From: Streptomyces griseochromogenes
GTDB taxonomy: Bacteria; Actinomycetota; Actinomycetes; Streptomycetales; Streptomycetaceae
DNA length: 64,000 nucleotides
NCBI RefSeq assembly: GCF_001542625.1
Contig: NZ_CP016279.1
Location: 2,418,001 to 2,482,000, forward strand
Reading direction: 5' to 3'
In this document: one piece after another, positions 41,080 through 54,297 of the stretch
Position numbering within the stretch: position 1 is the first letter of the stretch
Layout of the letters: each line of letters starts with the position of its first letter
Position numbers and translations under genes: made by a program
Notes under the pieces: model-generated
Database searches by the model: none
Told to the model about the DNA's origin: nothing
The model's input: the letters and a program-made list of their open reading frames with translations, nothing else

Positions 41080-41715
41080 ATGCCGACGTCAGCCCCGCCC
41101 AAGAACCGCTTCGAGCGGCGCCGCGCCGAAACCCGTCAGGCCCTCGTCCGCGCGGCCCGGCAGATCCTCGCGGAGACCGGGGACACCAGCGCCAGCATCC
41201 AGGCCATCGCCGAGCGCGCCGATGTAGGTTTTGGATCCTTCTACAACCACTTCGAGTCCAAGACGGAGCTGTTCGACGCCGCGGTGACGGACGCCCTGGA
41301 GGAGTTCGGGCAGGTCATCGACACGCGAGTGGAAGGCGTCGACGACCCGGCCGAGCTGGTCGCGGCCGGCTTCCGGCTCACCGCCCGGATGGCCGACTCC
41401 CACCCGGAACTCATGCGGATCCTGCGCGACCGCGGCCTGTCCCACATCCACTCCGACACCGGCCTCTCCCCGCGCGCTCTGCGCGACCTGGAGATCGGCA
41501 TCGCCTCGGGCCGCTTCACCTGCGGCAACGCGACCACCGCCCTGTCCGCCCTGGGCGGCACCCTGCTGTCCCTCGTGGCTCTCAGGCTGGACCGTCCGGA
41601 CCTGGACGGCGATGAGGCCGCCTCTGACCTGGCCGAGATGGTCCTGCGCATGCTCGGCGTCCCGCCGGACGACGCCCATGAGGTCACCCGGCGCCCGCTG
41701 CCCGACCCCGCCTGA
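41080..41715 (+). CDS. TetR-family regulator of the aromatic catabolic operon (predicted)
   Basis: This 211-residue repressor has an N-terminal helix-turn-helix (SIQAIAERADVGFGSFYNHFESKTELF, about 35-62) and a helical ligand domain. It is divergent from the dioxygenase operon and flanked by paired operator-like repeats, so it probably represses that operon and itself until a pathway substrate binds. The 3' end overlaps the convergent second TetR gene by 32 bp. Confidence 0.9.
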   Translation: MPTSAPPKNRFERRRAETRQALVRAARQILAETGDTSASIQAIAERADVGFGSFYNHFESKTELFDAAVTDALEEFGQVIDTRVEGVDDPAELVAAGFRLTARMADSHPELMRILRDRGLSHIHSDTGLSPRALRDLEIGIASGRFTCGNATTALSALGGTLLSLVALRLDRPDLDGDEAASDLAEMVLRMLGVPPDDAHEVTRRPLPDPA

Positions 41716-42334
41716 CAACGTCCTGCACCTGGAGCGCAGCCGCCTGTGGTGCCACGCCGGCGGCTACGAGGAACGCAGTCGATGCAGCTTCACCCGTGGG
41801 GTCCGCCCACGGGCGCGCGGCGTTCTCCTCGGCGAGTGCCAGCACCAGTGCCTCCAGCGCCTGAGCGAGTACGGGTGCTGGAAGATGGTCCGCGAAGACG
41901 CCTTCGCGCTGACCACGTCGTAGGGTCGCGACGGCCTCTTCGCGGGCCGGTGCCACAGTGGCGCGGAACGCGTCCTCGCCCGGATGACGCCGCCCCAAGG
42001 CGATGAGCATGCGGTATTGATCGCCCACCGCCCATGCCGCCAGCACCATCCGCGTCATCGCCTCGATCGGGTCGGCATCCGTGGTACGGGCTGTGGCGAA
42101 TGCCTGCCGGAGTTCATCGCCTGCTTCCTGAGTCAGGTCGGCGATCAGCGCATGTCGGCTGGGGAAGTGTCCGTAGAAGGTGCGCCGGGCGACGCCGGCC
42201 GCCTCAGCGATGCCGTCGAGACTCGCGGCGGGGTCCTCCTGCAGTTTCTGCCGGGCGGCCACGAGGATGCGTCTGCGGTTGGACTGAGCATCCCTGCGCT
42301 GCGGAGTACGGCCCAGGGCGTCGGTCGTCTGCAT
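41684..42334 (-). CDS. TetR-family regulator
   Basis: This 216-residue protein has a helix-turn-helix near residues 38-65 (SLDGIAEAAGVARRTFYGHFPSRHALIADL) and a C-terminal ligand domain. ATG 42334 is chosen because the conserved region starts soon after. It lies downstream of, and in the same direction as, the alcohol dehydrogenase and CYP102 genes (109-bp gap), so it may have its own promoter. Its target is unknown. Confidence 0.88.
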   Translation of the reverse strand: MQTTDALGRTPQRRDAQSNRRRILVAARQKLQEDPAASLDGIAEAAGVARRTFYGHFPSRHALIADLTQEAGDELRQAFATARTTDADPIEAMTRMVLAAWAVGDQYRMLIALGRRHPGEDAFRATVAPAREEAVATLRRGQREGVFADHLPAPVLAQALEALVLALAEENAARPWADPTGEAASTAFLVAAGVAPQAAALQVQDVVRRGRAAGAG

Positions 42335-42443
42335 GGCTTCTGTCTCTTCACGGTTGCCGGAAAGCCGCGGGCGCCGGTGCTCCCTCACGCACCGGCGCCC
42401 GCTCACCCCTGCCCAGGGTGGCTTGATGTCCTGCTGACAGGCG

Positions 42444-43490
42444 TCAGGGGACGAGGATGAGGCGGATCGGGTCGCCGATCTTGTTCTCCAGACGGCTGAC
42501 CGCGTCGGCCGCGTCCACCAGCGGGATGTGGTCCGTGATGGAGGGGGCCAGGTCGAGGCGACCTGCCGCGGTCAGCCGCACCAGCTCGGAGACCGACTCG
42601 GGGCTGCCGCCGTAGTGACCGCGGACCTGCTTGCACATGTAGTTGAAGGTCAGACCCTCGGTGATGGTGAGCGGCCTGGGGGTAATGCCCACCAGGATCA
42701 GGGAGCCGCCCAGGCCGAGCACGGCGGCGGCCTGCTCGCGGACGGCGGGTACGCCGGCGCAGTCGAAGGCGAAGTCCAGGCCCCGTCCTTCGGTGGCCGC
42801 GCGGACCTGGTCGGCGAAGTCGGGGGCGGCCGGGTCCAGGGCGTAGTCGGCGCCGAAGGCCAGGGCGCGCTCGCGGGCGCTGGGCAGCGGGTCGACGGCG
42901 ATGATCGGGGCGGCGCCGACCAGGCGGGCGAGGCGTACGTTGTGGGCGCCGACTCCGCCCACGCCCCAGACGCCGACGGACTGGGCGGGACGGACGCCGG
43001 CGGTGGTGACGACGGCGGCGTAGGGCGTGGAGACCGCGTCGGGGATGATCGCGGCCTGGTCGAAGGGGAGGCTGTCGGGGATGGGGATGAGAGTGTCCTC
43101 GCGGGCGATCACGTACTCGGCCCAGCCGCCGTCATAGTCGATCCCGGCGGTGAGCATCTGGGTGCAGGGGCGGCGGCGCACGCAGCCGGCGCACTTACCG
43201 CAGGTCTTGCCGGCCTCCAGGGTGACGCGGGTGCCGACGGTCAGGCCGCGCTTGAGGTCGGGGCCGAGCGTGTGGACCACACCGGAGACCTCGTGGCCGA
43301 CGGTGACCGTGTCGGAGGTCGCGAACAGCGGGACGAGGGAGCCGTCGAGCAGGTGGACGTCGGAGAGGCATACGCCGGCGGCCTTGACCTCGATGAGGAC
43401 CTCGCCCGGACCCGGCACGGGGATCGGGACCTCTTCCACGGCGAACTTCTTGCTGTCCAGGTGGAAGCGGCCGGCGAGCATGGTGTCCAT
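42444..43490 (-). CDS. Zinc-dependent alcohol dehydrogenase (MDR family)
   Basis: This 348-residue enzyme has the catalytic-zinc ligands in GVCLSDVH and GHEVSG, a structural zinc cluster CGKCAGCVRRRPC (about 98-110) and the Rossmann motif GVWGVGGVGAHNV (about 170). It probably oxidises a primary or secondary alcohol with NAD(P)+. It follows the CYP102 gene in the same direction, so it may oxidise the hydroxylated product of that P450. Confidence 0.9.
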   Translation of the reverse strand: MDTMLAGRFHLDSKKFAVEEVPIPVPGPGEVLIEVKAAGVCLSDVHLLDGSLVPLFATSDTVTVGHEVSGVVHTLGPDLKRGLTVGTRVTLEAGKTCGKCAGCVRRRPCTQMLTAGIDYDGGWAEYVIAREDTLIPIPDSLPFDQAAIIPDAVSTPYAAVVTTAGVRPAQSVGVWGVGGVGAHNVRLARLVGAAPIIAVDPLPSARERALAFGADYALDPAAPDFADQVRAATEGRGLDFAFDCAGVPAVREQAAAVLGLGGSLILVGITPRPLTITEGLTFNYMCKQVRGHYGGSPESVSELVRLTAAGRLDLAPSITDHIPLVDAADAVSRLENKIGDPIRLILVP

Positions 43491-43653: not shown

Positions 43654-46600
43654 TCAGGCGAAGACGTCCTGCTGGTAGCGCTCGTCGGCCTCGAGCTGGG
43701 CGAGCCACTGCTGGGCGGTCTCGTCGTCGCTGCCGGTCCGCTGGCAGTGGATGGCGGCGAGGGCCTCGCGGACGGCGGGGGCCATGCGGCGGCCGTCACC
43801 GCAGACGTAGATGTACGCGCCGTCCTCGATGGCCTGCCACACGGTGTCGGCGGCGTTGGCGATGGCGTTCTGCACGAACCGGGCCGGGTGGCCGGTCACC
43901 GCGGAGTAGGCGGTGTGGACCTGCGCGATCCCGGTCTGCTCCCAGTCCTGCATCTCCTGCTTGTAGAAGTAGTCGTGCTCCGGGTGGCGGCAGCCGACGA
44001 ACACCTGAGACAGGCCCACCTGGGTGCCGTTCGCGTGCTGTGTCGCCCGCTCCTCCAGGAAGCCGCGCAGCGGTGCGATGCCGGTGCCGGGGCCGATGAG
44101 GATCAGCGGAGTGGCGGGGTCGGCGGGCGGGGCGAACGTCGGGGAGGGCACGCGGACGTAGCCGTACACGACGTCTCCGGGCTCGAGGCCGGCGATGTAG
44201 GAGGAGCAGGTGCCGCGGTACTGTCCGTCACCGGACATTGCCGGGCCCTCCAGCAGGCCGACGGTCAGGCGCACGTGGCGCGGGTTGGCCGACGGGGCGG
44301 AGGAGATGGAGTAGAAGCGCGGGCGGATCGGTCCCATCATCTCCAGGAACACCGCCAGCGGCAGCTCGATGGCCTCGAAGCGCTCCAGCAGGCCCAGCAC
44401 CGAGATGCGCTTGCCGAGGATCTCCTTTTGGTAGTGCTCCTCGGCCTCCCGGGTGTCGGCCGTGTAAGCCTGGAGCTGCGGCCGGGTCCACGGGCACTGG
44501 GTGTACTCGGCGAGGGTCTGGATCTGGGAGCGGGTGGCGACGTCCTGCAGTTCCAGGAACTCGGTGAGCAGGATGCCGGCGGTGACCGGGGTGCCGACCG
44601 GCAGGTGGGTGCGGCCGCCGCCGGGCTGGTCGAGCCGGAGTACCTGGCCGTAGTCGACACCGAGTCGCCTCAGTGCGCGCTCGACCAGGGCGGCTTCGTT
44701 CTTGGCGAAGACGGCCAGGTGGTTGCCGGTGTCGTAGGTGACATTCTCGGGCAGCTCGACGGTGATGGACTTCGCGGACGGGCGCGGCGGCTCGATGGCG
44801 AAGTCCCACAGGCCGGTCGCGTCGGCCACGAGCTCCTCGTTGGCCACCACCGTGAGCGGGTATGCCTGCTCGGAGACGATGGCGGGGCGCACGTCGGACT
44901 CGGTGAGCAGCTGGACCTGGTAGCGGGGGCCGCTCGCCTGGGAGGTGTCGGCGGCGTACTCCTCGGCCAGGGTGGCCCACAGGATGTCCATCCACCGCGT
45001 GGCCATGCCGTCGAAGTCACCGGCGGCGTCCGCGATACCGCGCTCGACGACCGGGGTGGCGCCGGCCGCCAGCAGACCTTCCTCGATCCGCTTGGGGAAT
45101 GCCTGGTAGGTGGCCACCCACTGGGTGTTGCCGGCGCCCAGCAGCGCGAACCGCACGTTCGCCAGTGAACCCTGGGGCAGCCCGGTGGCGAGCAGGTCGT
45201 CGAAGCGCTGGGCGTTGTCGGGAGCCTTGCCGTTGTAGCTGGCCGCCACGACGACGAGCAGGCCCTCGGTGGGCAGGTTGTCACCCAGTTCGTCCAGGCT
45301 CATCAGCGTGGTGCCGAAGCCGGAGCGCTCACCGCGGTCGGCGATGGTGCGGGCCAGGTCCTCGCACGAGCCGAGGCTGGAGCCGTAGGCCACGGTCAGG
45401 TTCACCCCGACACCGCTGACCGCTGCCTGCGACTGCGTGTCGCCGGTCCGCAGGTCGGCGGCGCCGAAGACGGTCCGCTGGTGCTCCTGACGCCTGCGGA
45501 CGACCAGCTGGAAGTCGCCGGGCTTGCGCGTCAGCGCCTCGCGGACGTCCATCTTGTAGTCAGTGGTGTCGGAGAACCTGAACTTCTGCAGTACCAGTGC
45601 GAGGGCCAGGCGGGCCTCGGTGAGCGCGAACTGGCGGCCGATGCACGCACGCACACCGTTGCCGAACGGCTTGTAGGCGTGCGGGTGCTGCTCGGCGCGG
45701 TTCTCCGGCAGCCACCGGTCGATGTCGAACTCCTCCGGGCGGTCCCACGCCTTGGGGTGGGAGTGCAGTGCGCCCATGAGGATGTTGGCCCTGGTTCCCT
45801 TCTTCAGCTCGTACCGGTCGCCGATGACGGTGTCGTCGATGGGTGCCTTGGCGATCAGCGGGATGGGCGCCCACAGGCGCAGGGTCTCCTCCAGGATCCG
45901 CGGGATGACGTCGAGCTGCATGATGGTGTCGTAGTCCGGGACCGTGTCACCGGGTAGCAGGCGGTCCACCTCGGCGTACGCCTGCGCCAGGACGTGCGGG
46001 TTGCGCATCAGCGAGTACGTGGCGAACGACAGCAGGCCACTGGTCGTCTCGTGACCGGCGATCAGGAAGGTCACCACCTGGTCGCGGACGTTCTCGTCCG
46101 CGAGCAGCTCGCCGGTCTCCGGGTCGGTGGCCTCCAGCATCAGGCCCAGCAGGTCCTCCTCGCCGGTGCCCTTCCCCTCGCGGCGCTCCTTGATCACGCT
46201 CTCGACCAGGTCGCGCATCAGCTGGATGTTCTCGCGGTACTTCCTGTCGTCCGCCTTGCGGAGCCTGGTCATCATCGGCAGTTCCTGGGAGCGCCGCATC
46301 GACTCGATCAGCGCCTCCAGCAGCGAGTTGAGGAAGGGGTGCAGCTCCTCCTTGTCGAAGGACTGGAAGCGGTAGCCGAACCCGGACAGGGCGATGGTGT
46401 CCAGGGTGAGCCGGGTGTAGTCGTCGGTGATGGCGACCGGCTGACCCTCCCGGCTCTCCCACTTGCCGACGAGGTTCTGGGCGATCTCCAGCATCTGCCC
46501 GTAGTAGGTCTTCATGGCCCGCTGGCTGAAGGCCGGCAGCAGGATCCGGTGGGCCATGGCCCATTCCTCTTCGTGCTGGTGGGCTGTGAACAGGCCCGCC

Positions 46601-46875
46601 CCCGTGTAGTCCCGCACATGGCTCAGCGGCGTCTTCTCGATCTGCTTGAAGAACCGCGTCTCGTCGCACACCTCGGCCACCAGGTCCGGGTCGTAGACGA
46701 AGACCTGCTCGATGCCGGCGATGTCCATGCCGTAGATGCCCTCGGGGAACTGCTTGGACAGCTCGTTGAAGTACTCCACGGGGTTGGTGTCGGGGATCTG
46801 CGGCGTGTAGCCGAGCAGGGGGATCCCGCGCGGGGACCGGATGGGGCGAAGGCCGTTCGCGGAGTGCGTGGTCAT
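43654..46875 (-). CDS. Self-sufficient cytochrome P450-reductase fusion, CYP102 (P450-BM3) family
   Basis: This 1073-residue protein has an N-terminal P450 domain (about 1-475): I-helix LIAGHETTSG, ExxR in EETLRLW, and heme loop FGNGVRACIG with Cys411. A Phe equivalent to BM3 Phe87 (GAGLFTAH) and the RILLPAFSQRAMK region are present. A flavodoxin-like FMN domain (about 500-640; YGSSLGSCEDLA) and an FAD/NADPH reductase domain (about 680-1073; RPRFYSIS, GPGTGIAPLRGFLEER) follow. Such enzymes hydroxylate fatty acids near the omega end using NADPH. GAGGAG precedes the ATG at 46875. It is divergent from a TetR gene, like other CYP102 genes that sit beside fatty-acid-responsive TetR repressors (Bm3R1, FatR). 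Confidence 0.95.
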   Translation of the reverse strand: MTTHSANGLRPIRSPRGIPLLGYTPQIPDTNPVEYFNELSKQFPEGIYGMDIAGIEQVFVYDPDLVAEVCDETRFFKQIEKTPLSHVRDYTGAGLFTAHQHEEEWAMAHRILLPAFSQRAMKTYYGQMLEIAQNLVGKWESREGQPVAITDDYTRLTLDTIALSGFGYRFQSFDKEELHPFLNSLLEALIESMRRSQELPMMTRLRKADDRKYRENIQLMRDLVESVIKERREGKGTGEEDLLGLMLEATDPETGELLADENVRDQVVTFLIAGHETTSGLLSFATYSLMRNPHVLAQAYAEVDRLLPGDTVPDYDTIMQLDVIPRILEETLRLWAPIPLIAKAPIDDTVIGDRYELKKGTRANILMGALHSHPKAWDRPEEFDIDRWLPENRAEQHPHAYKPFGNGVRACIGRQFALTEARLALALVLQKFRFSDTTDYKMDVREALTRKPGDFQLVVRRRQEHQRTVFGAADLRTGDTQSQAAVSGVGVNLTVAYGSSLGSCEDLARTIADRGERSGFGTTLMSLDELGDNLPTEGLLVVVAASYNGKAPDNAQRFDDLLATGLPQGSLANVRFALLGAGNTQWVATYQAFPKRIEEGLLAAGATPVVERGIADAAGDFDGMATRWMDILWATLAEEYAADTSQASGPRYQVQLLTESDVRPAIVSEQAYPLTVVANEELVADATGLWDFAIEPPRPSAKSITVELPENVTYDTGNHLAVFAKNEAALVERALRRLGVDYGQVLRLDQPGGGRTHLPVGTPVTAGILLTEFLELQDVATRSQIQTLAEYTQCPWTRPQLQAYTADTREAEEHYQKEILGKRISVLGLLERFEAIELPLAVFLEMMGPIRPRFYSISSAPSANPRHVRLTVGLLEGPAMSGDGQYRGTCSSYIAGLEPGDVVYGYVRVPSPTFAPPADPATPLILIGPGTGIAPLRGFLEERATQHANGTQVGLSQVFVGCRHPEHDYFYKQEMQDWEQTGIAQVHTAYSAVTGHPARFVQNAIANAADTVWQAIEDGAYIYVCGDGRRMAPAVREALAAIHCQRTGSDDETAQQWLAQLEADERYQQDVFA

Positions 46876-46957
46876 GTCTTGCTCCTCTGCGCAGAGGGGG
46901 TGGAGGGGGGTGGGCAAGGGCGCGCTGTGCGGGTCGATGCTGTGGCGCCGTACAGAA

Positions 46958-46995
46958 ACATACACTGTATGGAATTAGTACCGTACGAGGTATGG
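46958..46995. promoter_or_regulatory. CYP102-proximal operator pair (CCRTAC-N3-GTAYGG)
   Basis: ACATACACTGTATGG (46958-46972) and CCGTACGAGGTATGG (46981-46995) are 15-bp palindromic sites, 23 bp from start to start. They lie 80-120 bp upstream of the CYP102 start codon. Two further pairs of the same motif occur in the window. They are probably binding sites of the divergent TetR protein. Confidence 0.75.
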
Positions 46996-47046
46996 AAACC
47001 GGGCGCAACCCCGGCGTGCAGGCCAGTGCTGTGATTCAGGTCATTT

Positions 47047-47084
47047 CCATACGACGTACGGAACTGATATCGTACGCAGTATGG
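47047..47084. promoter_or_regulatory. TetR-proximal operator pair (CCRTAC-N3-GTAYGG)
   Basis: CCATACGACGTACGG (47047-47061) and TCGTACGCAGTATGG (47070-47084) repeat the motif of the CYP102-side pair with the same 23-bp spacing. The second site contains the ATG of the TetR gene (47081-47083), so a bound repressor would block its own transcription start or initiation. Autoregulation is strongly suggested. Confidence 0.78.
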
Positions 47085-47782
47085 AAAAGAAGGTGAGGCG
47101 TCCCCCGCGGGGAACGAGGAAGAGGGACGTGCCTCTGACCGAGGCCGGGATCTATGCCGCCGCCCTGCGGCTGATCGACGCGGACGGTGTCGAGGCGCTC
47201 ACCATGCGCAAACTCGCCACCGAGCTCGACGCGAACCCGATGTCGCTGTACCACCACGTGCCGAACAAGGAAGCGGTGCTGCGTGGCGTGACACGAATGG
47301 TCGGCGCCCAGTTCCGGACCGTGACGCTTGAGGACGCGCCTTGGCAGGAGCGCATCCGCCTGCTCGCGACGGACTTCCGTACGCTGGCGCACCGTCACCC
47401 CGAGCTGCTGGCCTACTCGTTCAGCCACCAGCCGGACTTCATTCAGCCCGACGACCCGTTCTGGACCACGCTCACCGCGATCGTGGAGGCTGCCGGGGTT
47501 CCGCAGTCAGATGTCTCGGAGATCGCGGCGCTGATAGTCGCCGTCGTCATCGGCGTCCTCGCCGCCGAACTCAACGGCTCGCTCCACCAGTGGTCGACCC
47601 TCAAGCCCCCCGGCTTTGGCGACGGTGAAGACGGTGACGGGGAGGCTGACCCCGATTCTGCGGACACAGCTCCTGAAGGCCCTGACCAGGACCACATGTT
47701 CCGCCTCGTGATGGACACGCTCATCACGGGCCTGGAAAGCCGGCTCACCGGCGATCGTGACGGCCCGGACGCCGGTGTTTGA
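47081..47782 (+). CDS. TetR-family regulator divergent from CYP102
   Basis: This 233-residue protein has a basic N-terminus, a helix-turn-helix near 40-65 (TMRKLATELDANPMSLYHHVPNKEAVLRG) and a TetR_C-type ligand domain. An acidic Gly/Asp insert lies near 180-205 (GFGDGEDGDGEADPDSADTAPEGP). The start codon lies inside one of four CCRTAC-N3-GTAYGG sites. Predicted to repress itself, CYP102 and the 50.6-kb divergent pair; by analogy with Bm3R1/FatR the inducer may be a fatty acid or related lipid. Confidence 0.9.
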   Translation: MEKKVRRPPRGTRKRDVPLTEAGIYAAALRLIDADGVEALTMRKLATELDANPMSLYHHVPNKEAVLRGVTRMVGAQFRTVTLEDAPWQERIRLLATDFRTLAHRHPELLAYSFSHQPDFIQPDDPFWTTLTAIVEAAGVPQSDVSEIAALIVAVVIGVLAAELNGSLHQWSTLKPPGFGDGEDGDGEADPDSADTAPEGPDQDHMFRLVMDTLITGLESRLTGDRDGPDAGV

Positions 47783-47826
47783 GCCACACCTTCTGAGATG
47801 CGCGAGGTGTATCGGGAGACCGCCTC

Positions 47827-48708
47827 TTGGAGCTGCGTGCGGGGCGCGGGCTGCTGGTGATCGCGCTCGCACTGATCGTGGTCATCACCGTGACGGACCT
47901 CGGCATAGGCACCAGTGTTCATCTGGGCCCGTTGCTGCTCATCGCGCCGACACTGACTGCCTCCTTCGCCGGTCCGCGGCTGACCGCTCTGGTCGGGGCT
48001 CTGGCACAGGCAGCCCTGGTGATCATCTCGGTCTTCCAGGGCGGTCTGACCACGACGAATCACGTGGCGCAGCTCATCGCCCTGGCGGTGCTGTCGGCTC
48101 TGGTGGTCTTCATCACCTACGTGCGGGAGCCGCGTGCCCGGGAGCTGAGCCGGGTGCGGTCGGTGGCCGAGACGGCACAGCGGATGCTGCTGCGGCCTCC
48201 ACCCCGACGGATCGGACCCTGGAGGGTGGCCTGGCTGTATCTGGCCGCCGAGGACGAGGCCCAGATCGGGGGAGACCTGTTGGCGGTCGCCCGCGCTGAT
48301 CACCCCTGCACCCGGGTGCTCATCGGCGACGTGCGGGGCCATGGGCTGGCCTCCATCGGCGAGGCATCAGTGGTGATGGGCGCGTTCCGTGAGGGCGCTC
48401 AAACGGCCGCACCGACCCGTTCACCTTGGAACCGGGCGACATGCTGCTGCTCTACACCAACGGCGTGATCGAAGCCCGCTCACCGACCGGAGCCTTCTAG
48501 CCGCGCGCCGAACGGGGTCGCCTCCTTCCCCGCCTCAAGCCCCGACGCTCTGCTGCACCGCCTTCACCGCGACCTGCTCGAACACACCGGTGAGCAGCTC
48601 ACCGACGACGCCGCGTTCCTGATCATCGAACGCACCCCCTCGCGCCATCTGCACCGGCCGCACCTCATGTCCCATGCCGGCGGATCTCTCCCGTCCACGA
48701 CCGGCTGA
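47827..48708 (+). pseudogene. Decayed PP2C/SpoIIE-type serine phosphatase
   Basis: The intact part (TTG start, 47827 to about 48400) encodes about four membrane segments and the start of a PP2C domain (AQIGGDLLAVARAD, IGDVRGHGLASIGEASVVMGAFREGA). Then about 60-70 residues of the domain are missing. A shifted frame resumes with PFTLEPGDMLLLYTNGVIEARSPTGAF followed by TAG, where TAC (Tyr) is usual. A third frame gives the normal C-terminus (DLLEHTGEQLTDDAAFLIIERT) to a stop at 48706-48708. An internal deletion, a nonsense change and a frameshift make it non-functional. Confidence 0.85.
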
Positions 48709-49111
48709 CCGTAACCGCCGTCCCCGCCGGGTGGCGCAGTCACGGGGAGCGCGAGCGTGGGCGAACCTGTCGTCCGGTCCCCTGAGCACGTTCTGCGGAT
48801 TCGTCACCCTGCGAGCCGCATTTCGTCGGTTGTCGATGAGCGAACCGCCGTTGCGCGGTGCGCTGCGGCTGGATGGGCACCGGATCTCCTCGCCATCGTG
48901 ATCGCCGTCCGTCGAGCCGTTCACCGTGCCCGAGAGCACTCTGGCTGTAGTGACCACATCCCGCGTGGCCGCCGCTCGGCTGACGGACCGACCGCCACCG
49001 CCGGCCTCGCCGACTGCGTCCAGGGACCCTGCCGACTGGTGCGCGCCTTGGCCGAGTGACGCGCGTCGGATGCCGGCGCTTTCGGCCGCGTCACTCGTCG
49101 CAGGACGGCCG
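48709..49111. other. Intergenic stretch with no recognised gene
   Basis: About 400 bp between the phosphatase pseudogene and the NIPSNAP gene. Several frames are open, but none shows a ribosome binding site or a recognisable protein. It probably contains more decayed coding sequence. Nothing can be assigned. Confidence 0.5.
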
Positions 49112-49441
49112 TCAGCGCAAGGGCGAGTCCACGGTGGGCGTCAGCAGGATCTCGTCGAGGCCGACGATCTGGCCGATGTCGAAACCCTCCATGTCCGCGC
49201 GGAATTCAGGACTCGACAGGTACGCCTCCAGCCGCTCCCGCACGGCGTCGGCATCCCTGTAGGAAACGAGGGCGTAGAGCCGGGGGGTCTCGTTTCCGGG
49301 TGCTGCGGGCACCGTCCAGACGCCGTGGGTGGTGATCCGGTGCTTGGCCATACCGGGAATGTGCTGGGCCCAGATCTTCTCGTAGGCGGAGAGCGCGTCG
49401 GGGCTGCGCAGGGTGTAGACACGGAGCTGGTACTGGGGCAT
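49112..49441 (-). CDS. NIPSNAP family protein
   Basis: This 109-residue protein matches the NIPSNAP ferredoxin-like fold (MPQYQLRVYTLRSPDALSAYEKIWAQHIPGMAKH ... YLSSPEFRADMEGFDI). Small bacterial NIPSNAP proteins often accompany oxidative or aromatic metabolism; no precise reaction is known. The ATG at 49441 follows AAGGAA. It is 40 bp downstream of the SsgA-like gene on the same strand. Confidence 0.88.
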   Translation of the reverse strand: MPQYQLRVYTLRSPDALSAYEKIWAQHIPGMAKHRITTHGVWTVPAAPGNETPRLYALVSYRDADAVRERLEAYLSSPEFRADMEGFDIGQIVGLDEILLTPTVDSPLR

Positions 49442-49481
49442 GACGCTGGTTCCTTTGCTTTGGAGATTGGATGGTCGGCGG

Positions 49482-49904
49482 TCAGCCGTGGGGGAGCAGG
49501 TGTGCCAGTTCGGCATCCCAGTCGATGTGTCCGGACTCGGTCCCCCGTGGCACCAGAGCCTCCGTGTCCTGAAGGAAGGCCGTGAGGTCCCGCACGGGGA
49601 CCTCGAGCAAGGCGGTGCCGGCGGAGGACCCGAGGGCCATGTACATCGACTGGTCGCCCCGCCCCGCGGCCGACCAGATCCGGACGTCCGCGTGGCCTGC
49701 GGAGCCCTTCAGGCCATCAGTCAGGAGATCCCGCCCCAGAATCCATTCGACCGGCTCGTGACAGTCGACGAAGAAGCCGGCACGGACGACGTAGGGATCA
49801 GTGGGCTCGTACCGCAGACGTGCGCAGAGGGGCAATGAGTAGGCGTGCGAGACGACCAGCTCCACGGCCATCCGCCGCTCTACGGCCTTCAAGGACTTCT
49901 TCAT
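49482..49904 (-). CDS. SsgA/SsgB-like protein (SALP), sporulation and cell-division family
   Basis: This 140-residue protein has the SALP pattern: SLPLCARLRYEPTDPYVVRAGFFVD, VEWILGRDLLTDGL, DVRIWSA and TALLEVPVRDLTAFLQDTEALVPRGTES. SALPs occur only in sporulating actinomycetes and help place FtsZ or control spore-wall formation. This copy sits in an accessory region, so it is probably a strain-specific paralogue rather than ssgA or ssgB. The ATG at 49904 follows GGAAAG. Confidence 0.9.
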   Translation of the reverse strand: MKKSLKAVERRMAVELVVSHAYSLPLCARLRYEPTDPYVVRAGFFVDCHEPVEWILGRDLLTDGLKGSAGHADVRIWSAAGRGDQSMYMALGSSAGTALLEVPVRDLTAFLQDTEALVPRGTESGHIDWDAELAHLLPHG

Positions 49905-50165
49905 GATGGACTTTCCGCTCCTGGGTGTGGTTCGGCGGCGCCTCACGCCGGCCTGTGGTGAAGGCGCAGCGGGGGCGGAGGCGGCGGTACAGCAGGCCGC
50001 GGGCGCCGGACGGCACCGGTGCACCGCACGATGAGTGGCGCGGGGCGGCACTCACTCGGCAGGCGGGCGAGGCGCCGGCCCACGGGACACCGGGCGTCTC
50101 CGTGCCGCCGGCAGGGACCGGGCCGAGGGCACGGCCCGATCCCACGGCCTCGGCCGGTACCCGTC

Positions 50166-50582
50166 TCACCGGTCGTCGCGGCTCAAGTCGTGGTGGTCCC
50201 AGCCCCGGCCGTCGTGCTCGTGGCGGTACCCGTCGTGAAGGTACGACCTGTCCGACTTCCAGCCGCCGTGTCCCTCGCCCTCCCAGCGGTAGAAGTGACC
50301 ATCACGGTAGAAGAGACCGTCGCAGTCGTGCCGGGTCGAGTCGGTGCCGTTGTGGTCCTGGTGCCAGCCGCGGACCTCGTCGCAGGAGTAGCCCCGCTCG
50401 AGCAGGTAGCCGACACCGTGGTCCCAGCTGTAATCAGCGGCCACGCCCCCTACGGTCGGGCGCTGGGCGTGCGTGGACGCAAGGGACGCGGCCGATGCGG
50501 CGCCCCCGGCACCGAGGACGGCGACACCGGCGACCGCGACGGAGGAGACAGTGAGGGCGATGCGCTTCGTGAGCTTCTTCAT
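50166..50582 (-). CDS. Small secreted His/Asp/Arg-rich protein
   Basis: This 138-residue protein has a Sec signal peptide (MKKLTKRIALTVSSVAVAG, then AGGAASAA; cleavage near residue 31). The mature part is extremely hydrophilic. It has two cysteines (YSCDEVRGW, HDCDGLF) that could form a disulfide, and a tail dense in His, Asp, Arg, Gly and Trp (HEHDGRGWDHHDLSRDDR), suited to metal or polyanion binding. No known family is recognised. GGAAGGA lies six bases before the ATG. Two TetR-type palindromes lie 90-140 bp upstream. Confidence 0.8.
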   Translation of the reverse strand: MKKLTKRIALTVSSVAVAGVAVLGAGGAASAASLASTHAQRPTVGGVAADYSWDHGVGYLLERGYSCDEVRGWHQDHNGTDSTRHDCDGLFYRDGHFYRWEGEGHGGWKSDRSYLHDGYRHEHDGRGWDHHDLSRDDR

Positions 50583-50667
50583 GATCATTCCTTCCCGCGG
50601 GCGTGATAGGCCACAACGGCTGTTCCGTCAGGCGATGTGCGGCGCCTGAGATGGTCCGAACGAGCAC

Positions 50668-50719
50668 TTCCATACACTGTATGGAATCTCCTGGTTCATT
50701 GGTACCATACGATGTATGG
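50668..50719. promoter_or_regulatory. Third operator pair (CCRTAC-N3-GTAYGG)
   Basis: CCATACACTGTATGG (50670-50684, perfect, extending to TTCCATACACTGTATGGAA at 50668-50686) and CCATACGATGTATGG (50705-50719, perfect) lie between the divergent secreted-protein and 68-residue genes. The starts are 35 bp apart. The motif is the same as in the CYP102/TetR promoter, so the same regulator is likely to act here. Confidence 0.8.
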
Positions 50720-50746: not shown

Positions 50747-50953
50747 GTGCGACCGATAAGGTTTCTGGTGATCGCCGACGGCCTCACCGCTCGGATCTGG
50801 GCGGGAAAGTCGTCCGCACTGAAGCCCGTGCCCGACCCGCTCGGGCAACTGCGGGTGCGGGTGACCCCTCACGTGTACGACCGCAGCGACCAGGGACTGC
50901 CGATGCGTGAGTTGACTTGCACCGGGCGACGGCCCACACCGGCTTCTTCGTAA
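50747..50953 (+). CDS. Small protein, 68 aa, unknown function
   Basis: The GTG at 50747 follows GAGGA at seven to eight bases, and 28 bp upstream lies a perfect CCATAC-N3-GTATGG operator. The 68-residue product (RPIRFLVIADGLTARIWAGKSS ... VTPHVYDRSDQGLPMREL) has an N-terminal beta-strand-like hydrophobic stretch and a polar C-terminus, with no signal peptide. I recognise no family. The strong translation signals and the operator argue for a real, regulated gene. Confidence 0.6.
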   Translation: MRPIRFLVIADGLTARIWAGKSSALKPVPDPLGQLRVRVTPHVYDRSDQGLPMRELTCTGRRPTPASS

Positions 50954-51348
50954 GCAGCTGACAGAAGGCGGCCGTGCTCCGGCCGCTGCCCGCACTGCAT
51001 CTGCCCTGTCGCCGCTTGTTCTGCAGCAGCGGCGGGTTTGCGATCGCCGGAAGGCGGGACGACCATTCTTTTAGGGCTGTATCGACCAGGGCGCACCCTG
51101 ATGCCGACGTCGTTGATGTATCGCCCTCTGCGGGCTGTGCCGCGCACGGCCGAGCGAGCGCCACCGTCAAGGCTGCGGCGCAGCGAACATGACCGAACCT
51201 GTTCAGTCGACGGCCGTGGACGGGTGATGGGTGGGACGTGCAGCCCGGTCGACTGACGGGACGGTCGAGATCGCCGCATGGCTTCCTGACCGGGGCGATG
51301 GGTCGATGGTCGCTGTGGGGCGGGAGGCAGAACGGAAGGAGTCTGCCC
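50954..51348. other. Intergenic region upstream of the ferredoxin-P450 operon
   Basis: About 395 bp without a convincing gene. Composition is irregular and several frames are open without ribosome binding sites, so degraded sequence is possible. It must contain the promoter of the operon that follows; the ferredoxin ribosome binding site GGAAGGAG lies at its end. Confidence 0.45.
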
Positions 51349-51567
51349 ATGCGGATCGTCGTGGACCTGAATCGCTGCCAGGGATACGCACAGTGCGTGT
51401 ATCTGGCACACGAGGTCTTCAGATTGCACGGTCAGGAGGCGCTCACCTATGAGCCGAACCCCGATGACGAGCGGCGCCTGCAGGTCGAGCGAGCCGCTGC
51501 GGCCTGCCCGGTGCAGGCGATCATGATCGACCGCGTGGAGGGCGCGGATCGGGGCGCGACGTCATGA
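51349..51567 (+). CDS. 3Fe-4S ferredoxin of a P450 system
   Basis: This 72-residue ferredoxin has Cys10, Cys16 (CQGYAQC) and Cys53 (CPVQAI), the three-cysteine C-x5-C ... CP pattern of [3Fe-4S] ferredoxins that serve actinobacterial P450s. It carries electrons from the reductase encoded next to it to the P450. The ATG follows GGAAGGAG. The stop overlaps the reductase start (ATGA at 51564-51567). Confidence 0.95.
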   Translation: MRIVVDLNRCQGYAQCVYLAHEVFRLHGQEALTYEPNPDDERRLQVERAAAACPVQAIMIDRVEGADRGATS

Positions 51568-52967
51568 CCTTGCGGGCAACGGTCGAAGAGCTGGTGCGCG
51601 AGTTCCGGGCCAACGGCCGGATCGTGATCGTGGGTGCCTCCCTGGCCGGGCTGCGGGCCGCGGAAACCCTGCGCGCGGAGGGCTTCACCGGTTCGCTGAC
51701 CATCATCGGGGACGAGCCGTACGAGCCCTACGACCGTCCCCCGCTGTCCAAGCAGGTACTCAAGGGCTGGGTGCCGGCCGACCACACCAAGCTGCCCCGC
51801 ATGCGAGAAGTGGATGCGGACTGGCGGCTCGGGGTGGCCGCCACCGGGCTGGACCGGGACACCAAGCAGGTGCGCCTGGCCGACGGGGAGCAGGTGCCGT
51901 ACGACCGGTTGCTGATCGCCACGGGCACCCGCGCGCGACAGTGGCCGAACCCGAGCGAGGCCGCCCTGTACGGAGTCCACACGATCCGCTCGCGTGACGA
52001 TGCCGCACAGTTGCAGAAGGCACTGGCCGAGTCGCCATCGCGGGTACTGGTCATCGGCGCCGGGTTCATCGGCTCGGAAGTGGCCTCCGTCTGCCGGGAG
52101 CTCGACATCCCGGTGACCGTCGTCGAGCGGGGTTCGGCGCCGCTGGTCGGCGCGCTCGGCGGGGTGATCGGGGAGATCGCCGCGCAGATGCAGCGTGAGC
52201 ACGGCGTGGACCTGCGCTGCGGGCTGGGCGTGTCGTCACTGGAGGGCGACTCCGGAGGGCACGTGCGGCGTGCGCATCTGTCGGACGGAACCACCGTCGA
52301 CGCCGACGTGGTGGTGGCCTCGTTGGGGTCGATCCGCAACGTGGAATGGCTGGAGGGATCCGGGCTGGCGGCCGGTTTCTGGGGCGTCGGGTGCGACGCG
52401 GGTGGTCGGGCCTTCGACATCAACGGCGTGGTCACCGACAGCATCTACGTGGCGGGGGACGTGGCGCGTGCGCCGCACGTGCTGTACGAGTACCAGTTCC
52501 TGGCGATGGAGCACTGGGACAACGCCGTTCTCGGCGCCGAGGTCGCGGCGCACAACATGGTGAACCTCGAGCCCAACTATCGCCCGCATCTGCTGCTGCC
52601 CGGCTTCTGGTCAGGTCAGTTCGGCGTGAACATCAAGTCCGTCGGGGTGCCGCCATTCGGTGACGAGATCGTCTTCACCCAAGGGTCGGTCGAGGAGCGC
52701 CGTTTCGCAGCCGCCTACGGGCATGGGGGCCGCATCGTCGCGGCTGTCACCTTCGATCACGGGAAGTGGCTGGAGTACTACGGGAAGCTGATCGAGCAAT
52801 CCGGTCCGTTCCCGCCTCCGCCGCCGGGGTGGGACCAGCCGCCCGACATGAAGCCGGTGCCTGCCGAGTTCCCGGACCCGAGGGTCCCGACGGCGATCCC
52901 CGACGTCGTCCTGACCGGACACGCCCCGAGCGAGCGGACGGCCGAGTTCCGGCCGCGACGTCACTGA
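51564..52967 (+). CDS. FAD-dependent ferredoxin reductase with proline-rich C-terminal extension
   Basis: This 467-residue NAD(P)H:ferredoxin reductase has the FAD motif IVIVGASLAGLRAAETL (about 20-36) and the YEPYDRPPLSKQVL segment. The NAD(P)H-binding motif VLVIGAGFIGSEVAS (about 162-176) and the second FAD motif SIYVAGDVARAP follow. The usual length is about 400-420; here a Pro-rich tail (about 413-467, PFPPPPPGWDQPPD) is added. The tail may be a flexible tether or docking segment; that is inference. It sits between ferredoxin and P450 genes of one operon. Confidence 0.92.
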   Translation: MTLRATVEELVREFRANGRIVIVGASLAGLRAAETLRAEGFTGSLTIIGDEPYEPYDRPPLSKQVLKGWVPADHTKLPRMREVDADWRLGVAATGLDRDTKQVRLADGEQVPYDRLLIATGTRARQWPNPSEAALYGVHTIRSRDDAAQLQKALAESPSRVLVIGAGFIGSEVASVCRELDIPVTVVERGSAPLVGALGGVIGEIAAQMQREHGVDLRCGLGVSSLEGDSGGHVRRAHLSDGTTVDADVVVASLGSIRNVEWLEGSGLAAGFWGVGCDAGGRAFDINGVVTDSIYVAGDVARAPHVLYEYQFLAMEHWDNAVLGAEVAAHNMVNLEPNYRPHLLLPGFWSGQFGVNIKSVGVPPFGDEIVFTQGSVEERRFAAAYGHGGRIVAAVTFDHGKWLEYYGKLIEQSGPFPPPPPGWDQPPDMKPVPAEFPDPRVPTAIPDVVLTGHAPSERTAEFRPRRH

Positions 52968-53028
52968 CGCGACCACGGGGGCAAGCCTGTAGGCGGACAG
53001 CATCGACAGGAAGAAGGAGGGAAGCCTC

Positions 53029-54297
53029 GTGGTCGAGGAAACCCCCTGGCAGCAGGCCCTCCGCTACGCCAACCGGGCCAATCCGTACCCGTTCTACGAG
53101 GAACTCCGCAGGACACCGGTGGCGCGGCAGCCGGACGGCACCTATGTCGTCAGTACCTACCAAGAGATCGTCGCGCTGCTGCACGACCCCCGGGTCAGTT
53201 CGGATGTCAGGAAGCTCCCCGTCCCGGTTGCGGCCCCGGCCGAGGGCTCGGCGGAAGCCGAGCCGATCACGGAGGCGGTCATCTCTTTGGAGCCGAACAT
53301 CATCACCCAGGATCCACCCGAGCACGATCGAGATCGGCGGATGATGACGCCGCGTTTCGTCGGCCCTCCCCATTCCCCTCACCTGATCTCCGACCTTGAA
53401 CCCGAGATCCGCCGCATCGTGGACGGCCTTCTCGACAACATGCAGGGCAAGACCCGGTTCGATGCCGTCGACGAGTTCGCCTACCCCCTGCCGGTGACCG
53501 TGATCTGCAAGGTCCTGGGCGTGCCACTGGAGGACGAGCCACGCTTCCACAGCTGGATCGAGACGGCCCTGGACGCTTTGGATTTCGGCCCCGAGGCTGC
53601 CTCGGAGGAGATGCAGAGCCGACTGGCCGGGGGGCGCCGGGCCGTGCAGGAGTTCGGGCAGTTCGCAGCGGATCTGCTCGACCGGTACGCCCGGCAGCCC
53701 GGTCCGGGCATGCTTTCGGCCATGGTGAACGAGGACGGCCCGGAGGAACGGATGTCCCAGGGCGTGCTCGCGAGCAATGCACTGCTCCTGATCTTCGCGG
53801 GACACGAAACCACGGTCAACCTCATCGCCCACAGCGTGCTCACCCTGCTGCGCCACCCTGACGCGCTCGAGAAGCTGCGCCGCCGGCCCGAGCTGATCGT
53901 GCCCGGTGTGGAGGAACTGCTGCGGTTCGAGTCGTCGGTGCAGTTCTGGCACACCCGCTCCGCCGTGGAAGACATCGACATCGCCGGCACCACCATCCCA
54001 AAGGGGGCGCCGATCTTCCTGGCGTACGGCTCGGCGAACCGCGACCCGCAACGGTTCACCGACCCCGACGAACTCGACCTCGAACGCTGCGACAACCAGC
54101 ACCTCGGATTCAGCCAGGGCATCCACTTCTGCTTCGGCGCCCCGCTGGCGCGGCTCGAAGTCCAGGTCGCGGTCGGCGAGTTCGTCCGGCGGGTGCAGAA
54201 CCCGCGGCTGGTCGAGGACCCGCCGCCGTACCGCCACAACCAGATCTTCCGCGGTCCGCGCCACGTCCTCGTCGACATCGACGGCATCCACGACTGA
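53029..54297 (+). CDS. Cytochrome P450 (class I, ferredoxin-dependent)
   Basis: This 422-residue soluble P450 has the I-helix motif LIFAGHETTVN (about 265), ExxR in EELLRFES (about 302) and heme loop FSQGIHFCFGAPLARLE with Cys368. The GTG start follows GAAGGAGGG. The genes for its ferredoxin and reductase lie directly upstream, so the redox chain is complete. An alcohol dehydrogenase follows after 25 bp, suggesting hydroxylation followed by oxidation of the product. The CYP family and substrate cannot be fixed by eye. Confidence 0.93.
   Translation: MVEETPWQQALRYANRANPYPFYEELRRTPVARQPDGTYVVSTYQEIVALLHDPRVSSDVRKLPVPVAAPAEGSAEAEPITEAVISLEPNIITQDPPEHDRDRRMMTPRFVGPPHSPHLISDLEPEIRRIVDGLLDNMQGKTRFDAVDEFAYPLPVTVICKVLGVPLEDEPRFHSWIETALDALDFGPEAASEEMQSRLAGGRRAVQEFGQFAADLLDRYARQPGPGMLSAMVNEDGPEERMSQGVLASNALLLIFAGHETTVNLIAHSVLTLLRHPDALEKLRRRPELIVPGVEELLRFESSVQFWHTRSAVEDIDIAGTTIPKGAPIFLAYGSANRDPQRFTDPDELDLERCDNQHLGFSQGIHFCFGAPLARLEVQVAVGEFVRRVQNPRLVEDPPPYRHNQIFRGPRHVLVDIDGIHD

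Follow-up and report, generated by a model that had tools for sequence, protein, structure and literature searches.

Palindromic sites of a predicted SAV576-type TetR repressor at a CYP102 gene and a secreted-protein unit in Streptomyces griseochromogenes

The window analysed here is a stretch of 64,000 nucleotides from Streptomyces griseochromogenes (contig NZ_CP016279.1, positions 2,418,001 to 2,482,000), in which six 15-bp palindromes lie close to the genes for a TetR-family regulator, a CYP102-type cytochrome P450 (P450) and a small, probably secreted protein. The six sites are real and not a product of chance. Judged from the sequence and by analogy with Streptomyces avermitilis, the TetR protein encoded at 47081 is predicted, with a probability of about 0.87, to be a SAV576-type repressor that controls its own gene, the CYP102-dehydrogenase pair and the run of genes beginning with the secreted protein. 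The CYP102/TetR half of this arrangement, which an earlier note on the same DNA had described, is already characterised as SAV576/SAV575 (PMC3742746). The genes concerned are as follows (FAD, flavin adenine dinucleotide; NAD, nicotinamide adenine dinucleotide).

42444..43490, minus strand: zinc-binding dehydrogenase downstream of CYP102; counterpart SAV574
43654..46875, minus strand: CYP102-type self-sufficient P450, predicted target 1; P450, flavodoxin and FAD/NAD reductase parts
47081..47782, plus strand: TetR-family regulator, predicted repressor; TetR_N (PF00440, E 8e-11) and TetR_C_33 (PF13305)
49112..49441, minus strand: NIPSNAP-domain protein; by position and primer SAV579
49482..49904, minus strand: SsgA-family protein; Pfam SsgA, with the NCBIfam SsgD model below cutoff; by position SAV580/ssgZ
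50166..50588, minus strand: small protein with an N-terminus that looks like a signal peptide by eye, predicted target 2; heads the leftward run, with a start that may lie at 50582; by position SAV581

The CYP102 protein matches solved P450-reductase fusions across residues 14-1073 of 1073, while the small protein at 50166-50588 has no match in Pfam or NCBIfam. A TetR_N domain, a divergent CYP102-dehydrogenase pair and NIPSNAP, SsgA and secreted-protein genes on the far side of the regulator, all of which were found, are among the features of a SAV576-type locus.

The known counterpart in Streptomyces avermitilis

SAV576 is a TetR protein that represses SAV575, SAV574 and its own gene via CCRTACRVYGTATGS, as described on the basis of chromatin immunoprecipitation, gel shift, footprinting and reverse transcription PCR. 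SAV575 encodes CYP102D1, which oxidises fatty acids, and is co-transcribed with SAV574; SAV579-580-581 likewise form one transcript. The start point of SAV575 lies 87 nt upstream of its start codon, two footprints cover +19/-7 and -10/-33, and a third lies over the SAV576 start codon (PMC3742746). When the published S. avermitilis primers were compared with the window, the CYP102 end was matched with 0 mismatches, the dehydrogenase start with 1 and the NIPSNAP gene with 2 (GJ109, GJ110 and GJ160), GJ109 being found exactly in the CYP102 3' end. SAV574, SAV575 and SAV579 probably correspond to the dehydrogenase, CYP102 and NIPSNAP genes of the window.

Palindromic sites and their specificity

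The six putative operators, listed without strand, occupy two intergenic regions.

46958..46972: operator 1, with one mismatch, on the CYP102 side; positional counterpart of SAV576 site I, located at the start point of CYP102
46981..46995: operator 2, exact, on the CYP102 side; positional counterpart of SAV576 site II, a site that overlaps the S. avermitilis -10 region
47047..47061: operator 3, exact, on the TetR side; no counterpart among the reported S. avermitilis footprints
47070..47084: operator 4, with one mismatch, over the TetR ATG; positional counterpart of SAV576 site III
50670..50684: operator 5, exact; lies 82 bp before the start of the secreted-protein gene
50705..50719: operator 6, exact; lies 117 bp before the start of the secreted-protein gene

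The earlier note had described six copies of CCRTACN3GTAYGG. All of its coordinates stand, but the motif is exact only at 46981, 47047, 50670 and 50705, and the sites at 46958 (beginning ACATAC) and 47070 (beginning TCGTAC) carry one mismatch each. The measured spacings of 23, 66, 23, 3600 and 35 bp bear out the two CYP102/TetR intergenic pairs with equal 23-bp spacing and the two further perfect sites 3.6 kb away, and the site at 47070-47084 spans the TetR ATG at 47081, as had also been noticed. Projected from the CYP102 ATG (46875), the SAV575 footprints fall at 46943-46969, overlapping the site at 46958, and at 46972-46995, containing the site at 46981.

The specificity of the motif was assessed by scanning the genome (10.76 Mb, one contig), with the reversed motif as control. 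The exact 15-mer occurs at eight places, four of them here. With up to one mismatch it occurs at 145 places, twice the 72 of the reversed control, and this abundance would favour the explanation that the palindromes are not operators but copies of a repeated element or fortuitous matches in GC-rich DNA. At that density, however, 0.05 places are expected per 3.8-kb stretch, and the Poisson probability of six or more is ~2e-11. Position and spacing are moreover constant across genera and the sites have a footprinted counterpart in S. avermitilis, which leaves this explanation with a practically negligible probability.

The claim that the motif is confined to these two promoters fails for the 15-mer, which has four other exact places in the genome, and holds for the flanked 19-mer TWCCRTACN3GTAYGGWA at up to one mismatch. 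The latter has four perfect places and one with a single mismatch genome-wide, and all five fall within the two intergenic regions described here. The sixth site (46958) deviates from the 19-mer at two positions, as do seven other scattered, unrelated places, and at up to three mismatches the genome total of 95 does not exceed the control (99). The other four exact 15-mers were rejected as targets; two lie within long open frames with high GC content at third codon positions and two do not, and in the flanks of all four only 0 to 2 of the 4 added positions agree with the 19-mer. A site with one mismatch also lies 94 kb from the cluster, ~50 bp upstream of paired genes for a histidine phosphatase and an ADP-ribosylglycohydrolase (G000:C1:2370513; L044:5014). 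Its flanks fit at 2 of 4 positions, and it is a possible weak extra target.

Conservation of the sites with the regulator

Sites with up to one mismatch were counted within 260 bp upstream of TetR homologues in 105 distinct upstream regions, including that of the window, after 15 identical rows and one late-starting row had been dropped. A site is present upstream of 85 of the 86 relatives that share at least 42% identity with the window TetR, compared with 2 of the 19 homologues below 42%; the reversed motif occurs in none of the 105. All 65 relatives (at least 42% identity) with a divergent CYP102 have a site, and 59 of these have two or more. The commonest spacing is 23 bp (81 cases), and in 73 of the 86 relatives a site begins 8-11 bp before the projected TetR start.

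The regulator itself was found at E<=1e-40 in 21 of 295 Streptomyces genomes and in one copy in the present genome. Besides Streptomyces, sites accompany it in Arthrobacter, Rhodococcus, Saccharothrix, Actinoallomurus and Microtetraspora, the more distant relatives having fewer or differently spaced sites. Several Arthrobacter and Rhodococcus opacus loci (L085, L087, L090-L094) encode a TetR that is 67-73% identical to that of the window and has operators. The best segments of their CYP102 and dehydrogenase are 86-91% identical to those of the window, which suggests horizontal transfer. In four other loci (L041, L042, L083 and L086) a SAV577-like second TetR, 55-58% identical to that of the window, lies near the first, with a site 8 bp before each projected start.

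Another TetR-family protein might bind the palindromes alone or in competition, for example the product of 41684-42406, downstream of the dehydrogenase. This gene has relatives in many of the loci, and in S. avermitilis the second TetR SAV577, which is 59% identical to SAV576, is described as competing for the SAV576 sites with weaker binding (PMC4051647). The operators nevertheless recur upstream of the adjacent TetR where no match to the 41684-42406 type was found, as in Arthrobacter L090-L093, and, among the 9 of 106 first-look candidates that were scored, no paralogue of the SAV577 kind besides the 47081 gene reached E<=1e-40 in the present genome. Control by such a protein is thus very unlikely compared with control by the TetR at 47081.

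The second site pair and the secreted-protein unit

Two further features border the second site pair on its right.

50747..50953, plus strand: 68-codon open reading frame of the earlier note; not considered a gene
51349..54297, plus strand: ferredoxin (51349-51567), FAD reductase (51564-52967) and P450 (53029-54297); possible third target

That one regulator joins CYP102 to a second unit is strongly supported by the S. avermitilis literature and by comparative genomics. The description of this unit as two uncharacterised proteins had to be revised, as the leftward run comprises the secreted protein, the SsgA-like protein and the NIPSNAP protein, and the 68-residue frame is dropped. In a tblastn comparison (E<=1e-4), the latter was without a match in any of 79 loci, among them 28 that have the secreted-protein gene, and an alignment of four relatives (L055, L067, L105 and L053) showed that its region is not conserved.

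Sites lie upstream of the secreted protein in 27 of the 28 loci, and in the remaining one (L062) the promoter is beyond the stored DNA. In 24 of the 27 the two sites of the pair are 73-91 and 107-125 bp away from the secreted-protein gene. A search of the 295 genomes (E<=1e-12, sites within 400 bp upstream; places partly overlapping the 28 loci) found the secreted protein in 15 genomes, all among the 21 with the regulator (Fisher P 9e-21, a value in which shared ancestry overstates independence). Every one of the 21 places has at least one perfect 15-mer upstream and 17 have two, with none for the reversed motif. Secreted-protein paralogues in L148 and L150 lie 42-44 kb from the nearest regulator gene (E<=1e-40) and still have sites, which speaks for regulation in trans and against mere proximity.

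The second pair could instead mainly serve the rightward ferredoxin, FAD reductase and P450 genes, forming a two-P450 oxidation regulon in which the secreted-protein unit is incidental. These genes follow the pair in the window from 51349, and 18 of 21 ferredoxin loci have a site within 1.5 kb upstream, the nearest lying 133-214 bp from the projected frame start in 11 of these. All 18, however, also have the adjacent secreted-protein gene, and the three ferredoxin loci without that neighbour (L064, L096 and L098) have no ferredoxin site. The distance from the nearest site to the ferredoxin varies from 133 to 648 bp, whereas that to the secreted protein is kept as given above. Loci with the secreted protein and no ferredoxin match keep the sites (e.g., L053, L061, L078, L082 and L095), and in L096 sites adjoin SsgA, with no secreted protein found there. 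This alternative is therefore considered unlikely. Since ferredoxin loci have sites only beside the secreted-protein gene, and since the 68-residue frame lacks homologues and conservation, the leftward run of secreted protein, SsgA-like protein and NIPSNAP protein is probably the main target of the second pair; control of the rightward genes is uncertain.

Further observations were made around this unit. A block at 51026-51077 (GGCGGGTTTGCGATCGCCGGAAGGCGGGACGA...), which precedes the ferredoxin by ~300 bp, has been conserved in L055, L060, L067 and L105 amid diverging DNA. It may represent the true ferredoxin promoter or operator; no copy was found upstream of the ferredoxins in L064 and L096. 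Two clearly different ferredoxin-reductase-P450 cassettes accompany the cluster among related strains, as if exchanged, one ~87-95% identical to that of the window (L055, L064, L067 and L105) and the other 46-63% identical (L056, L066, L076 and L104). Between TetR and NIPSNAP, a remnant-like open reading frame of a SpoIIE-type phosphatase (47827-48468) matches only the start of the Pfam profile, below cutoff, and pieces of it recur in some relatives.

Proposed mechanism

Binding to the palindrome and repression of both the CYP102-dehydrogenase pair and the regulator gene are established in the literature for the S. avermitilis counterpart. The sites are observed here with their positions, specificity and conservation, also at the second unit, and the TetR of the window would act on them by analogy. 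A TetR dimer is expected to bind each 15-bp palindrome (19 bp with flanks). At 46958 and 46981 the sites span the start point and -10 region predicted for CYP102, and TetR bound there would block transcription of CYP102 and the dehydrogenase. From the sites at 47047 and 47070, over its leader and start codon, TetR would repress its own gene. The pair at 50670 and 50705, 82-131 bp upstream of the secreted-protein gene, would serve to repress the secreted protein-SsgA-like-NIPSNAP run and perhaps also the ferredoxin, reductase and P450 genes to the right. The repressor would be released by a small ligand, for which a P450 substrate or product resembling a fatty acid is the likeliest candidate. 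A ligand of this kind is suggested by the fatty acid oxidation of CYP102D1 and by the precedent of Bm3R1/FatR, which is displaced from DNA by fatty acids (PMC3814354).

Several observations weigh against assigning the regulator to the SAV576 type. The published CCRTACRVYGTATGS, a consensus that rests on three sequences, is met letter for letter only by the sites at 50670 and 50705, and the four intergenic sites are off by 1-2 bases. The published SAV576 start point lies 405 nt upstream of its start codon, a distance that would reach into CYP102 in the window, and the TetR promoter may therefore be different. Even with three mismatches allowed, the window contains no match to the fourth printed primer, GJ159, which is directed at SAV581. 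Among the 86 relatives, 13 are without the start-codon site, and L101, with a TetR of 60% identity, is the sole one without any sites.

A wider function can be proposed tentatively, although it is more doubtful than not. A fatty-acid-like compound would be oxidised by CYP102, the dehydrogenase and possibly the second P450 with its ferredoxin and reductase, and this oxidation would be coupled both to an SsgA-like protein of development and to timed secretion of a small protein, with the oxidised lipid as the signal read by the repressor. The secreted protein would be a dedicated partner in this process, because it never occurs without the regulator in the 295 genomes and has the operator even at places more than 40 kb from the regulator gene.

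Significance and comparison with known systems

The pairing of this TetR with its operator holds across actinobacteria, including Streptomyces, Arthrobacter, Rhodococcus, Saccharothrix, Microtetraspora and others. The statement of 2013-2014 that SAV576 and SAV581 are without orthologues in other Streptomyces appears to be outdated. Deletion of SAV576 raises the avermectin yield, for which one explanation offered is a further target not yet identified (PMC4051647). The secreted-protein/SsgA-like/NIPSNAP unit is a concrete candidate for such a target behind the avermectin effect. Among the papers listed by literature searches, no title or abstract reports testing of the secreted-protein genes as a target, and they may already be predicted in the list of putative SAV576 targets, Table S2 of PMC3742746.

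Like Bm3R1/FatR of Bacillus, the regulator would be a repressor of the TetR family that serves a P450 of the CYP102 type. The B. subtilis genes fatR and cyp102A3 are organised as a single operon behind a single operator, which is described as the only site bound genome-wide (PMC3814354). Unlike fatR, the regulator gene of the window diverges from CYP102, with six sites and two site-bearing promoter regions in place of a single operon.

The locus also resembles the SAV576 system. In both, TetR is divergent from a CYP102-dehydrogenase pair in the same gene order, the sites fit the palindrome CCRTACRVYGTATGS exactly or to within two bases, they are placed at the start point of CYP102 and across the start codon of TetR, and the order SAV579-580-581 matches that of NIPSNAP, SsgA and secreted protein beyond TetR. 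The window differs in having four intergenic sites in two 23-bp pairs, compared with three footprints in S. avermitilis, and no SAV577-type paralogue at the threshold and scoring depth given above. It also has a site pair before the secreted-protein gene, whereas the parts of the S. avermitilis account considered here do not mention such a pair as a target that was tested. The mechanism is thus already known, and the present locus adds a further instance of it together with a conserved, well-supported second unit.

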